DNA from: Cryomorphaceae bacterium 1068
Lineage (GTDB): Bacteria; Bacteroidota; Bacteroidia; Flavobacteriales_D; Cryomorphaceae
Assembly (NCBI GenBank): GCA_027214385.1
Contig: JAPVXR010000018.1
Location: forward strand, 1 to 64,000
Length of the DNA stretch: 64,000 nucleotides
Direction: 5' to 3'
In this document: one piece after another, positions 23,318 to 28,841 of the stretch
Position numbering within the stretch: the stretch's first letter is position 1
Layout: every line of letters begins with the position of its first letter
Translations under genes and position numbers: made by a program
Notes under the pieces: model-generated
Told to the model about the DNA's origin: nothing
Databases searched by the model: none
Seen by the model: only the letters and a program-made list of their open reading frames with translations

Positions 23318-23502
23318 TTTTAGACAGTTTTAGTGATTAATTTTCGTAGGTGCTTCTAAGGTATTGAGAATTTTCCGCTTGTGATATTTGATTACTCAAA
23401 TTTTAGAGGAAACAGTCGAAAAAAGGATTAGATAAAACAAATTGAAACTCTCTGAAGGTATTTGTCGTAATCCCTGATTTGGAAAACGTTTTTGGAACCT
23501 GC

Positions 23503-25317
23503 ATGAAAAAATCCCAACTACTGCGTTTTCTCCCCTGCGTAATTATCGTCACTTCTGCCTTTAGTCAAAAACCCGTCTACGAAGACTTCGTGGGAGCGGG
23601 CCACAGCTCTGGTATTAATATCTCAACGAGTAGCTCTTTATCAAAACCCGGTCGCGAACAAGCTGCTACAGGAGCTTCATCGCTCGATGGCTCAGGATTG
23701 GAAAGTCGCCAAATGGAGGCTGCCAGATTTCTAGCCCAAGCCGGCTTCGGAGGAAAGCCCCATGAAATTAAAAATCTCGCCACCCATCTCAACTTTGAGT
23801 CGTGGATTGATCGCCAATTTGCCGTAAAGCCCACATCAATGCTTTACGAAAACCGACGCGCCTACCAAACTGCAAAAGAGCTAAAAGCACTTACCGACGA
23901 TGTGAGCAACTACAACAACTCATCGAGGCATTTCCACTATGCATGGTGGCAATCGGTTATGACAAACCCTGATCAGTTGAGACAAAGAGTGGCAGCGGCA
24001 TTAAGCGAAATCATAGTACTCTCAACCAATGGGCCTGTCAACAATAATGGTGAGAACTACGCTTCATTCTATGATTTACTGCTAAGGCATGCTTTCGGAA
24101 ACTACAAGGATCTTCTTTACGACGTAACCATGCACCCCGCTATGGGAGTCTACTTGACTTATTTACGGAATCCAAAAACGGATACCACTTCAAACACCTT
24201 TCCTGACGAAAACTATGCCCGTGAGGTAATGCAACTATTCAGCATAGGCCTTTATGAGCTTAACCAAGACGGTAGCATTAAGCTAGATGAAAATGGAAAT
24301 TCCATACCAACTTATGACAATGATGATATTATAGAATTATCAAAAGTGTTTACAGGATTAGCAGCGGGAGCACTAAATAAAAATGCAATAGAAAACGATC
24401 GAGTGCTCCGGTTCTCCACCAACCAAAACGACATGGACTACACCGTCCCCATGTTGATGTACGAAGATGAACACGAAGAGGGCGAGAAGTATTTGCTAAA
24501 CGGATATGTCATTCCCTCAGGACTTTCAGGAACTGAAGATATCGAAATGGCATTGACTCATTTGGTTAATCATCCAAATACGGGACCATTTATTTGCAGA
24601 AAACTAATTCAGAACTTGGTTAAATCGAACCCCAGCCCAGCCTATATTGCTGATGTTTCCGCTGCGTTTAATGACAACGGAGAGGGCATAAGAGGAGATA
24701 TGAAGGCTGTGATCAAAGCCATTCTTCTTCACGAAGAGGCGCGTGATTGCTTGTGGCAAAATGAATCGACCAATGGTAAACTGTTAGCACCCTCGCTCAG
24801 GTATACAGCATTCGCAAGAGCGATGCAACTTGATGCCGGAAACAATCTTTACTATTCAGAAGGCAGAGGTTTTTTTGAAGATACATTTCATAGGGTTTTG
24901 TCCTCGCCGTCAGTTTTCAACTTTTACTCTCCTGATCATATTCCCAATGGACCATTGAATGAAATGGAACTAGTTGCACCCGAATTCGAAATCTTCAATT
25001 CAGTAACGAGTATCGGATACCTGAATCAGGTGAATAAATGGACTGACCGCGCAGACGTTTTCACTGCACCCGAGCTGACCGGAGATGTGGAAGTCAATCG
25101 CGAATATTATTATGAAATGGCGCAAGACCCACAAGTCCTAATTAACCACTTGGACCTCCTTTTGACTAAAGGACGCCTCAGTGAAACGACACGAAACATT
25201 ATTATAGAAGCATTAGAGGGGCTGCCCGAAAACAATCAAGAAAACATGCTAAGGGATCGCTGGGAAATAGCCACGTACTTGGTCATGATCAGCCCTGAAT
25301 TCAACATTTTAAAGTAA
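23503..25317 (+). CDS. DUF1800 family secreted protein
   Basis: A 604-residue precursor with signal peptide (MKKSQLLRFL to SAFSQ). The body matches DUF1800: an N-terminal AARFLAQAGFG segment, WWQSVMTNPDQLRQRVAAALSEI split over two helices, DENYAREVMQLFSIGLYELN with the invariant Glu and His-rich neighbourhood, and HPNTGPFICRKLIQNLV. DUF1800 genes nearly always travel with a DUF1501 gene, as here (three bases apart). The pair is thought to act on an exported substrate but the biochemistry is unknown. The ATG at 23503 is preferred over the upstream in-frame ATG at 23479 because it begins the signal peptide. Confidence 0.88.
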   Translation: MKKSQLLRFLPCVIIVTSAFSQKPVYEDFVGAGHSSGINISTSSSLSKPGREQAATGASSLDGSGLESRQMEAARFLAQAGFGGKPHEIKNLATHLNFESWIDRQFAVKPTSMLYENRRAYQTAKELKALTDDVSNYNNSSRHFHYAWWQSVMTNPDQLRQRVAAALSEIIVLSTNGPVNNNGENYASFYDLLLRHAFGNYKDLLYDVTMHPAMGVYLTYLRNPKTDTTSNTFPDENYAREVMQLFSIGLYELNQDGSIKLDENGNSIPTYDNDDIIELSKVFTGLAAGALNKNAIENDRVLRFSTNQNDMDYTVPMLMYEDEHEEGEKYLLNGYVIPSGLSGTEDIEMALTHLVNHPNTGPFICRKLIQNLVKSNPSPAYIADVSAAFNDNGEGIRGDMKAVIKAILLHEEARDCLWQNESTNGKLLAPSLRYTAFARAMQLDAGNNLYYSEGRGFFEDTFHRVLSSPSVFNFYSPDHIPNGPLNEMELVAPEFEIFNSVTSIGYLNQVNKWTDRADVFTAPELTGDVEVNREYYYEMAQDPQVLINHLDLLLTKGRLSETTRNIIIEALEGLPENNQENMLRDRWEIATYLVMISPEFNILK

Positions 25318-25320
25318 GCT

Positions 25321-26739
25321 ATGGCACCGAAGAAGAGAATAATCGATAGACGGAAGTTCTTGAGTGATGCAGGCTGTGCTGCTTTGGGAACGACAACCTT
25401 GTTTTCAACCTTGGTCAATATGAAAGCCATTGCAGTTGCGGCATTGGACAAGAATCCAATACCCAAATCAGGCGGGGACTATAAAGCCCTTGTTTGCATT
25501 TTGTTGGCGGGAGGAATGGACTCCCACAATGTTCTTATCCCAAGAGGAGATAACGAGCATGCTGAGTACTTGACTACGCGTTTTAATCTGGCATTACCAA
25601 AGAGTCAAATTCTTCCTTTAAATCACGGTGGGCAAGGTGGAAGACTATATGGAGTACACCCGAATATGCCGGAGGTACAACAGCTATTCAATTCGGGTAA
25701 AGCGGCATTTGTGGCAAACGTAGGGACGCTAATTGAGCCCACAACAAAAGAACAATATCAAGGTACGGGTCATCCATTGCCGATAGGACTCTTCTCGCAT
25801 TCAGATCAAATTATGCATTGGCAGACGGGTAGACCGGGCGAAAGAGCCAACCACGGCTGGGGAGGAAGAATGGCTGATTTGATTCAAAGTATGAACTCCA
25901 ATCAGAACTTGTCTATGAATTTCTCGCTAAGTGGAAGAAACCAATTTCAAAGTGGACAGCAAACAGTTGACTTCTCCATCAATACCAACGGAAGTGTCGG
26001 GATTGACGGTTTCAACAATGACAACACCTATCACACCTTAAGAAATGCTGCCATTAACAACATGCTTGAAGCGGAATACCAAGACGTTTTTGAGCAAACG
26101 TATGTGAATACAGTAAAATCTTCGGCTGAGGGCAGCACACAGTTCCAGGAAGCGATCAATAATCTACCCGAATTCAACACAACTTTTTCAGAAACCCGAC
26201 TATCTGATCAGTTGAAAATGGTAGCAAAAGTTATCGCTTCCCGCGAAGAGCTAGGATTTTCAAGACAAACATTCTTCATCAAGTTGGGTGGATGGGATCA
26301 CCACGATGGAGTATTAGAGAAGCAAGCAGAACAGTTACCCGTTCTCAGTGCAGCTCTCGGAGAATTCAATTCTGTTCTCGAAGAGCTCGGTGTCGATTCG
26401 AATGTCACCACTTTCACCGTCTCTGACTTTGGCCGGACGCTAACCAGTAATGGAAATGGATCTGATCACGCTTGGGGAGGAAATGCGCTTGTAATGGGTG
26501 GTGGATTGAACGGTGGTGAGATTTATGGAAACTACCCATCATTAGAATTGGACAGTGACCTGATGTTGCGGAGAGGACGACTGATTCCGACTGTGTCGGC
26601 GGCAGAGTATATTGCTGAATTGGCACTTTGGTTTGGGGTATCACCAACTGACATCAACGACATTCTCCCAGATCTCCCCAATTTCTTCGACACCACATCA
26701 GGTGGCTATCCCCTCGGATTTATGAACCCAACATCATAG
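25321..26739 (+). CDS. DUF1501 family protein with Tat-type signal
   Basis: A 472-residue protein whose N-terminus has a twin-arginine motif (DRRKFLSDAG, about residues 9-18) followed by a hydrophobic stretch, so export in folded form is likely. The rest is a sulfatase-like alkaline-phosphatase-superfamily fold typical of DUF1501: LLAGGMDSHNVLIP (about 61-74), HSDQIMHWQTG, GGWDHHDGV (about 321-329) and TVSDFGRTLTSNGNGSDHAWG (split by the family's Asp and His ligands). It sits between DUF1800 and a T9SS cargo with gaps of three and two bases, so all three are co-translated from one mRNA. Confidence 0.88.
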   Translation: MAPKKRIIDRRKFLSDAGCAALGTTTLFSTLVNMKAIAVAALDKNPIPKSGGDYKALVCILLAGGMDSHNVLIPRGDNEHAEYLTTRFNLALPKSQILPLNHGGQGGRLYGVHPNMPEVQQLFNSGKAAFVANVGTLIEPTTKEQYQGTGHPLPIGLFSHSDQIMHWQTGRPGERANHGWGGRMADLIQSMNSNQNLSMNFSLSGRNQFQSGQQTVDFSINTNGSVGIDGFNNDNTYHTLRNAAINNMLEAEYQDVFEQTYVNTVKSSAEGSTQFQEAINNLPEFNTTFSETRLSDQLKMVAKVIASREELGFSRQTFFIKLGGWDHHDGVLEKQAEQLPVLSAALGEFNSVLEELGVDSNVTTFTVSDFGRTLTSNGNGSDHAWGGNALVMGGGLNGGEIYGNYPSLELDSDLMLRRGRLIPTVSAAEYIAELALWFGVSPTDINDILPDLPNFFDTTSGGYPLGFMNPTS

Positions 26740-26741
26740 GT

Positions 26742-27485
26742 ATGAAAAAGAGTCTATTCGTTTTAGCTTTCGTTCTCCCTCTCATCGGTATATCGCAATG
26801 CTACCCTGATCGACACAATACTTCGTGGAACGAGGCTTGGATATCTTGTGAAAAAAGAGAAAGTCCAAATTCTCAAAGAGGCAATGGACATTGGATTCTC
26901 TATGACTTCAGTCATACATATCGCCTTGGAAATGCGAAATTTTGGAATTTAAATGCTCCCGAATATTTGGAATCCGGGTTCAAGGGTTTCTATATTGACT
27001 ACAGTCTGGACGGGATGAACTGGAAAAACCTTGGGCAATTTACGCTTGCTCAAGCTATTGGAGAAAGCCTATATGAAGGGGAAGATATCACCAGCTTTGG
27101 CGGAGATACAGCTCGTTTCGTTCTATTCACAGCTATCGACACTTATGGTGGTGCCTGTGCGGGAATTTCTGAGGTTAAGATTGATGTTATGGAAGTCGTT
27201 GACCGACTTCAGATTTATGAAGAAGAAGAGTGTTTTGAAGTATCCATTTACCCGAATCCTCATAGCTCTGATTTCACATTGTCGCTCAAAACTCTATGCA
27301 AGGGTACCGTAGACTACGGCCTTTATGACCACACGGGAAAACTAATGAGAAAAGAAAGTTTCTCAAGCGATGAAGTGTTGAAAATAAGACGCATCGACAC
27401 CGGTGATTTACCAGTAGGGCTTTATCATTTGGTACTGACTCAAAATAAAGCTGTTGCCCGTTATCCCGTTATGAAGATTCAATAA
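26742..27485 (+). CDS. secreted discoidin-like protein with T9SS sorting domain, third gene of DUF1800 operon
   Basis: A 247-residue precursor: signal peptide (about 1-18, IGISQ), a galactose-binding-like (F5/8C) domain of about 130 residues (NTSWNEAWISC near the start, YSLDGMNWKNLG and GISEVKIDV at the end), and a T9SS type A domain from about residue 168 (SIYPNPHSSDF, then LPVGLYHLVL). The final residues YPVMKIQ replace the usual Lys-rich tail. It starts two bases after the DUF1501 stop. Being in the same operon suggests it is a surface-anchored partner or substrate of the DUF1800/DUF1501 pair. Confidence 0.75.
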   Translation: MKKSLFVLAFVLPLIGISQCYPDRHNTSWNEAWISCEKRESPNSQRGNGHWILYDFSHTYRLGNAKFWNLNAPEYLESGFKGFYIDYSLDGMNWKNLGQFTLAQAIGESLYEGEDITSFGGDTARFVLFTAIDTYGGACAGISEVKIDVMEVVDRLQIYEEEECFEVSIYPNPHSSDFTLSLKTLCKGTVDYGLYDHTGKLMRKESFSSDEVLKIRRIDTGDLPVGLYHLVLTQNKAVARYPVMKIQ

Positions 27486-27513
27486 GCAAAAGACGAACAT
27501 TAGTTGGCCATTA

Positions 27514-27545
27514 AAAAGGAAGGCCCTGTCCGAAGACAGGGCCTA
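27514..27545 (-). terminator. UUCG-loop terminator of the small RNA
   Basis: On the minus strand: ten-base-pair stem AGGCCCTGTC/GACAGGGCCT closed by a TTCG tetraloop, followed by TCCTTTTT. The plus strand after the hairpin has no T-run, so the signal points to minus-strand transcription. It lies 29 bases beyond the stop of the convergent T9SS gene and may also shield it. Confidence 0.8.
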
Positions 27546-27610
27546 AAGGTGCACATTGCTATGAATATCAGCTGAGAGCTGAATAGCGGCTAACCAAAAC
27601 CTCGCACCTT
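27514..27610 (-). ncRNA. candidate 97-nt structured small RNA
   Basis: On the minus strand, in the 261-bp gap between two plus-strand genes, all parts of a stand-alone small RNA gene are present: a promoter box TATCTTTG (27615-27622) with a TTTC 21 bases upstream, a perfect seven-base-pair closing stem (27604-27610 with 27547-27553), an inner stem of five pairs plus two G-U (27559-27563 with 27584-27588), a tip hairpin CAGCT-GAG-AGCTG within it, and an intrinsic terminator with a UUCG tetraloop. No open frame covers it. I cannot match it to 6S, SRP, tmRNA or a known riboswitch; comparison with Rfam families such as Flavo-1 and Bacteroid-1 would be needed. Confidence 0.6.
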
Positions 27611-27614
27611 ATGT

Positions 27615-27647
27615 CAAAGATAAGATATTTTATTCTTTAGATTGAAA
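27615..27647 (-). promoter_or_regulatory. promoter of the small RNA
   Basis: Minus strand TATCTTTG at 27622-27615 fits TAnnTTTG exactly; TTTC at 27647-27644 is 21 bases upstream and close to the TTTG/TTG -33 element. Start of transcription would be near 27610, where the closing stem begins. Confidence 0.6.
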
Positions 27648-27691
27648 TACAGGAACAATAAAATTCATCCTTTGATGAAGTCTTCTTCTTA

Positions 27692-27721
27692 TTGATCTTT
27701 TTCTATGTTGATGTAAATTCG
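27692..27721 (+). promoter_or_regulatory. promoter of DUF6268-like barrel gene
   Basis: TTG (27692-27694), 19-base spacer, TAAATTCG (27714-27721), one base off TAnnTTTG. Start of transcription near 27728, giving a leader of about 20 bases before the ATG at 27747. Confidence 0.6.
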
Positions 27722-27746
27722 TGATGTTTTATTTACAGACAGCAAC

Positions 27747-28841
27747 ATGAAAAAGTTTCAATTTCTTGTAATTTTAATTTTGATTAGTGTAGCCGTGCAC
27801 GCACAAGAGGATAGCACCTTTGTAGAGGAAGAATTTGATTTCTCTGATTTTGAACTTGCTACAGAACCAGCGAAAGCTTTTTGCAATAACAAGGTTTTAG
27901 GACAATCACCTACAACGCTAATCGGGGGGTTTTATGACTACATGCCCGAACATTCACTTATCGCGGGGTCGCCTGTAAATTCGGAAAACGTAGATCTATC
28001 AAATCAAGGAACAATAAATTCTTCTCAGCGACTGGCTTTGACGAGCAATTTGCCCATCGTGTCGAGAAACAACATATTAGTCAATTTCAACCTCGTTTTT
28101 CAACGTCAGTTCTATGACATCAGCGGATCAAACGGACATCCCCTTCTGGAAACACTCAACGAGAACGGACTGACACGAATGGGAGCACTTTTTACTGTCT
28201 TTAAACCTCTAAATGACAAAAACTTCTTTCTTGGTCAGATTGGTTTTGAAATAAACGGAGACTACGCGTTAAACGATATTCAGACGAGTAATGCCTTTCG
28301 ATTTCCAGTTGCTTTGCTCTACGGGTGGAAACCGAGTGACAGGTTGATGTACGCTTTCGGAATGTCGCGTACTTATTTAGGCGGAGCTTTGAACTATGTA
28401 CCGATTGTATACTACTATCACACCTTTAAAAATCAAAAATGGGGAATCGAGGCTGTCCTTCCATCAAGAGGTTCTTTGCGCTACAGGTTTGACTCAAAGA
28501 GTCTGATAAAAGCAGGTTTCACGGTGATTGGTGCTACCTATGCTTTAAACGATTGGTCAGAAAATGCCGAAGCCTACTCTCCCGAAGTGAATGAACTTTT
28601 TGCAGCAGAGGCGGTAGAATTGAGACGTTCAGAGATTAGAACAGGCCTTACCTATCAAAGGCAATTATTCGGTTTCTTCTGGTTTAGCGCAGAAGCGGGC
28701 TACAGGATCAATTACAGTTTTGAATTGGATCAAGACGGAGACTTCTTACGATTCTTTGGCAACGATGAGCCCTACTTCATCGAAAATGAATTGGACAACG
28801 CTATGTACTTCACGGTTGGAATTACCTATACCAGCCCTTAA
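27747..28841 (+). CDS. outer-membrane beta-barrel protein, DUF6268-like
   Basis: A 364-residue precursor with a signal peptide (about 1-19, AVHAQ), an acidic linker and then a barrel of roughly twelve amphipathic strands. The segments GRNNILVNFNLVFQRQFYD-like, KPLNDKNFFLGQIGFEINGDY-like and MSRTYLGGALNYVPIVYYYH are in the style of the DUF6268 family of Bacteroidota outer-membrane proteins; quoted stretches here are short excerpts. The last residues FTVGITYTSP lack a terminal Phe but end in a strand. Function unknown; a porin or lipid-transport role is possible. Convergent with DUF2147, six bases apart. Confidence 0.55.
   Translation: MKKFQFLVILILISVAVHAQEDSTFVEEEFDFSDFELATEPAKAFCNNKVLGQSPTTLIGGFYDYMPEHSLIAGSPVNSENVDLSNQGTINSSQRLALTSNLPIVSRNNILVNFNLVFQRQFYDISGSNGHPLLETLNENGLTRMGALFTVFKPLNDKNFFLGQIGFEINGDYALNDIQTSNAFRFPVALLYGWKPSDRLMYAFGMSRTYLGGALNYVPIVYYYHTFKNQKWGIEAVLPSRGSLRYRFDSKSLIKAGFTVIGATYALNDWSENAEAYSPEVNELFAAEAVELRRSEIRTGLTYQRQLFGFFWFSAEAGYRINYSFELDQDGDFLRFFGNDEPYFIENELDNAMYFTVGITYTSP

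Follow-up and report, generated by a model that had tools for sequence, protein, structure and literature searches.

A probable small RNA family of Cryomorphaceae that shares one invariant hairpin

It is very probable that an intergenic stretch in the genome of Cryomorphaceae bacterium 1068 encodes a genuine bacterial small RNA of ~97 nt that has not been catalogued before. The RNA lies on the minus strand of the window, the 64,000-nt stretch of DNA that was analyzed as a whole. The first-pass annotation had proposed a possible new structured RNA at this place, and this proposal stands, but the account was incomplete: the genome holds a set of four RNAs, this one included, that carry an invariant 16-nt hairpin. 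Comparison of the copies establishes a conserved, structured and non-coding element, in which the invariant hairpin (P2) sits on scaffolds that have diverged in sequence and retained their fold, with a terminator behind every copy. We are highly confident that this is a structured RNA gene and that it represents a new sRNA family. With roughly even confidence, we further propose a paralogous, trans-acting family specific to the Cryomorphaceae that would use the shared hairpin as its interaction module, base-pairing being the most likely mechanism.

The predicted transcript at the window locus

The minus strand from 27622 to 27513 reads TATCTTTG-ACAT-AAGGTGCGAGGTTTTGGTTAGCC...GGCCCTGTCTTCGGACAGGGCCTTCCTTTTT, and the parts that we assign to it are collected in Table 1. 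The first-pass annotation had described an exact -7 box, a closing stem that begins at the predicted start of transcription, an inner two-part stem and a UUCG-loop terminator, all of which we recovered. The box is the sole exact TAnnTTTG on the minus strand within 27400-27800, and such words occur in the window at a frequency of 0.37 per kb per strand. Its presence is meaningful here, because TAnnTTTG-type k-mers constitute the strongest upstream signal in the start regions of the organism's own genome (ATCTTTG, 20 occurrences versus 2 expected). In Flavobacterium psychrophilum, the TAnnTTTG box occupies positions -12 to -5 (PMC9723704). With the box placed in this way, the predicted +1 is the first base of the closing stem P1, and P1 therefore begins at the start of transcription. 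P1 comprises 8 bp including one G-U, and 6 bp are retained in the congener G001. The inner two-part stem corresponds to the bulged hairpin P3, and between P1 and P3 lies a second small hairpin, P2, which the annotation had left unnamed. The minimum free energy of type A is -43.5 kcal/mol compared to -26.5 +/- 3.1 for 200 dinucleotide shuffles, none of which reached as low a value (z = -5.4). No open reading frame of at least 60 aa overlaps the RNA, in keeping with the earlier remark that none fits.

Table 1. Predicted features of the type A RNA in the window and position of the type B RNA
Feature	Position	Strand	Basis or remark
Small RNA type A, ~97 nt	27514..27610	-	predicted +1 = A27610; fold z -5.4; syntenic G001 copy 81% identical
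-7 promoter box TATCTTTG, consensus TAnnTTTG	27615..27622	-	sequence, k-mer signal, published consensus and spacing
Closing stem P1, 5' strand AAGGUGCG	27603..27610	-	fold and paralogue comparison
Closing stem P1, 3' strand UGCACCUU	27546..27553	-	fold and paralogue comparison
Invariant 16-mer GAGGUUUUGGUUAGCC containing hairpin P2	27588..27603	-	exact-match search of genomes
P2 parts	GGUU 27601-27598, loop UUGGUU 27597-27592, AGCC 27591-27588	-	
Variable hairpin P3 with bulge	27558..27587	-	sequence differs in every paralogue, hairpin retained
Junction strand AAUG, P3 to P1	27554..27557	-	AAU common to A, C and D (alignment)
Intrinsic terminator AGGCCCUGUC-UUCG-GACAGGGCCU, then UCCUUUUU	27513..27544	-	hairpin 27544-27521, U5 at 27517-27513
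Type B RNA	L024:4870-5046	-	G000:C14; orthologues L026-L031

Type A has one orthologue, located in the syntenic gap of G001, with 81% identity over 100 nt (E = 2e-16) and one mismatch in the 16-mer. Nearby alignable coding blocks are 65-72% identical between the window and G001, while the intergenic DNA around type A hardly aligns. Judged from these alignments, the conservation of type A is above chance. Retention of the stems in a close relative, which had been named as a check on the proposal, was found in G001, where two terminator pairs are changed on both sides. Compensatory changes in the closing stem were borne out in part: they are absent between the orthologues, in which P1 is unchanged, and present between paralogues. 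The RNA had also been introduced by its place between a DUF1800 operon and a barrel gene. This describes the window correctly but is irrelevant, since the G001 copy sits between ppsA and a large surface-protein gene in a region that lacks the DUF1800/DUF1501 operon, the barrel gene and the DUF2147 gene; type A is thus not tied to these neighbors. The window segment 23479-29846, located between ppsA and a 1760-aa gene, holds the DUF1800/DUF1501 operon with a T9SS-tail protein as well as the barrel and DUF2147 genes, and these genes are missing from the corresponding place in G001.

Four RNAs with one hairpin and their distribution

The 16-mer GAGGTTTTGGTTAGCC is found exactly at four intergenic loci of the organism's own genome (G000), which we term A (the window copy, C18), B (C14), C (C13) and D (C3). 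About 0.002 matches would be expected at random (8.6 Mb, both strands). A terminator hairpin and a U-tract follow each of the four copies. RNAs A, C and D fold alike into a three-way junction of P1, P2 (GGUU[UUGGUU]AGCC) and P3, followed by the terminator. The sequences of P1 and P3 differ among the three, and between A and D five of six P1 pairs are changed on both sides. Shuffling of the sequence on both sides of the motif leaves the three-way junction intact in just 0.55-0.85% of trials per RNA (A, A', C and D). Fold z-scores range from -3.7 to -6.3 across A, A', B, C and D, and the P2 loop has an unpaired probability of at least 0.98 in A, B and C and of 0.68-0.97 in D. A covariance model (R2) recovers A, C, D and the G001 copy of A. 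In A, C and D, the terminator has no overlap with P1 and so resembles, in each of them, the end of a separate transcript. For A and B, the sequence provides an own promoter and an intrinsic terminator with no open reading frame; no exact -7 box was found in C, D or the G001 copy of A, where promoters are degenerate only. At the D locus (G000:C3, L033 5010-5290), two further TTTTTGGTTA words are located in the same intergenic gap and on the same strand as the motif, one of them at the divergent gene's start codon.

The larger type B RNA (~165 nt) is present in seven of eight Cryomorphaceae genomes, the eighth being 81% complete. It consists of a 5' hairpin, P2, P3 and a terminator stem holding an invariant insert of ~50 nt (UCUUUAAUGGUUGUUUUAGAUUGAUUGGUUAUCGAUUC...), which is nearly identical in the seven genomes and contains a second UUGGUUA. 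Beyond G000, the 16-mer is exact in the type B RNA of 6 further genomes, and in each of the seven the motif is preceded, at a distance of 28-31 nt, by an exact TAnnTTTG box, and the 13-bp terminator stem is retained. Covariation in type B is significant, with two-sided changes in 9 pairs and a score of 0.217 versus 0.127 for shuffled controls (0/500). The P2 stem is invariant including its U-G wobble, as is expected if the letters themselves are read. Across the family, type B is retained down to the exact letters.

Sequence comparison restricts the RNA family, in all the genomes sampled, to the Cryomorphaceae. An exact motif search of 84,980 species returned seven Cryomorphaceae records and six scattered single matches in unrelated phyla. 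Since these six are no more than chance gives, only the Cryomorphaceae stand above chance. Nothing similar to type B was found in 391 other Flavobacteriales, and neither RNA model had a match outside the family in the sampled order except for two weak, coding-like matches of R2 (G157 and G248) in which the motif is not intact. Copies with two mismatches within the family and with one mismatch outside it have no RNA-like context and are mostly coding-like. Viral contigs and plasmids gave no match. The statement that the RNA does not look like 6S, SRP or tmRNA agrees with a scan of Rfam 15 (4,227 families including these three, Flavo-1 and Bacteroid-1), in which no family reached its gathering cut-off. 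Permissive thresholds yielded chance matches only, the best being a greA leader with 18.2 bits against a cut-off of 60. Being absent from Rfam, the present RNAs are overlooked by annotation pipelines.

Possible modes of action and alternative explanations

The occurrence of a common hairpin on otherwise different bodies points to one shared binding partner. We tentatively picture a regulatory system specific to the Cryomorphaceae, with an invariant 16-nt hairpin grafted onto several unrelated scaffolds, namely the three-way junctions of A, C and D and the larger B with its ~50-nt insert, that could be read by an RNA-binding protein or a common RNA target in bacteria in which neither Hfq nor RRM_1 was found. 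Hfq (PF17209) was detected in none of the eight family genomes and in all five control genomes; RRM_1 (PF00076) was likewise found in 0/8 family genomes and was positive in a control Bacteroides genome. Little is understood of post-transcriptional control in Bacteroidota, and a family with an invariant hairpin provides a ready bait for the missing partner, be it protein or RNA.

In the mechanism that we favor, sigma-A-type transcription would start from A27610 and yield the ~97-nt transcript, which would act in trans via P2, the interaction module common to all paralogues. The UUUUGGUUA segment might base-pair with sites of the UAACCAAA type in a restricted group of mRNAs and alter their translation, with neither Hfq nor an RRM_1 protein involved. 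The different scaffolds of the paralogues could provide the same seed with separate expression control and stability, like FopS of Bacteroides. Against base-pairing, P2 is a closed hairpin that would have to open before a seed longer than the 6-nt loop could pair. P2-complementary sites also show no enrichment at start codons: in 864 kb of the own genome, sampled without bias, TAACCAA was found at 5/699 start codons versus a permutation mean of 4.1 (rank 29 of 105). A first count of 16/343 before start codons was biased by the choice of stretches that contained pattern hits, and the effect was gone in the unbiased sample. Genome-wide, P2-complementary sites show no excess over a reversed-pattern control, and the only 12-nt perfect complement to P2 elsewhere in the genome is an intergenic site on C10. 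A limited set of targets for P2 base-pairing is possible.

An explanation that we regard as less probable retains the same sRNA family and lets P2 bind a protein, so that the RNAs would titrate or guide an RNA-binding protein in the manner of CsrB and CsrA. CsrB-type RNAs titrate CsrA, and they resemble the present RNAs in that small shared hairpin loops are the recognized unit. The invariant unit described here, a small hairpin on unrelated scaffolds whose loop is fully exposed, is consistent with this explanation, as are the lack of enrichment of complementary sites at start codons and the second UUGGUUA inside the invariant insert of type B. Sponges are usually multi-site, however, and whereas CsrB and CsrC present many GGA loops, each RNA has one P2 here (with two sites in B). 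A protein that reads the loop usually lets the pairs of the stem covary, which those of P2 never do, and a protein partner would have to be of another kind than RRM_1 or Hfq, neither of which was found in the family.

It is unlikely that the RNAs are cis-acting leaders (riboswitches or attenuators) of the genes that follow them, that is, the SBF-family gene for B, a transglycosylase/solute-binding lipoprotein gene for D and ppsA for A in G001. In the four genomes whose flanks were examined (G000, G001, G002 and G005), the gene immediately downstream of type B is the SBF-family (bile acid:sodium symporter) gene, whose apparent TTG start is under ~100 nt from the terminator. D ends about 50 nt before the ATG of the lipoprotein gene, and in G001 ppsA lies ~300 nt downstream of A in the same orientation. 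Against a leader function, type A is conserved although in the window the next three genes (23479-27485, 4 kb) are on the opposite strand, C has no clear downstream gene, and ppsA of G001 has its own exact box (TACATTTG) near its ATG. P1 and the terminator do not compete in A, C and D, with only a possible 3-bp GCG/CGC alternative in B, whose 13-bp terminator stem is kept in every genome that has it. A cis role is unlikely because the window copy has no gene to control and its P1 does not compete with the terminator; cis effects of B and D are possible.

We consider it highly improbable that the four intergenic copies are a dispersed repeat or mobile element (REP/MITE-like) instead of RNA genes, given that they share only ~16-22 nt, their flanking stems pair in spite of different sequences, terminal repeats were not observed, every copy has a terminator of its own, and the type B loci that were examined are syntenic. 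Equally remote is membership in a known family (6S, 6S-Flavo, Flavo-1, SRP or tmRNA) or a short coding mRNA, for which size and position would be unremarkable, but Rfam gives no match at gathering score, the TTG frame in A has only 9-12 codons and differs between copies, and G001 has no counterpart of the ATG at 27556.

Related systems and candidate targets

By analogy, the trans-acting family that we favor would work most like the FopS paralogous sRNAs, although we do not claim membership. FopS of Bacteroides thetaiotaomicron comprises 14 copies, each ~65-70 nt long with a seed region at the 5' end, and is bound by the RRM protein RbpB (PMC11697453). Shared with FopS and GibS are the occurrence in Bacteroidota, several paralogues per genome, a single conserved block close to the 5' end and sigma-A-type promoters (PMC11697453); in G000, there are four loci, and the motif is no more than ~30 nt away from the predicted 5' end. 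In contrast to FopS/GibS, there are four copies of ~90-165 nt here, what they share is a hairpin carried by unrelated scaffolds, and no RRM_1 partner was found in any of the eight family genomes. Rfp18 of F. psychrophilum is described as an sRNA conserved in the genus Flavobacterium (PMC9723704). Like Rfp18 and other Rfp sRNAs, the present RNAs are structured, stand-alone sRNAs of the same order with TAnnTTTG-type promoters (PMC9723704), but in the sampled order their models matched outside the Cryomorphaceae only in two weak, coding-like cases, which would set them apart from Rfp18. Flavo-1 (RF01705) and 6S-type RNAs are small structured RNAs of Flavobacteria as well; their covariance models do not match type A.

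Two paralogous secreted-protein genes that lie in tandem in the own genome (G000:C11, L157) and a homologue in G001 (C27, L165) share the leader UUAUUAACCAAAAACAAUUCUUAUG. The leader AUUAUUAACCAAAAACAAUUCUUAUG is identical in these genes, and the DNA further upstream is divergent. The ...UAACCAAAAACAAUUCUUAUG leaders of the two C11 genes and the G001 homologue are candidate targets of the RNAs; their likeness could reflect targeting or shared ancestry. In Cryomorpha ignava (G005; L167, L168 and L169), four genes whose proteins are alike at the N terminus have near-identical leaders, UUAACCAAAAAACC(A/U)AUUAUUAUG. Some of these genes are located at contig ends, and the arrangement looks like a repeated gene cassette.
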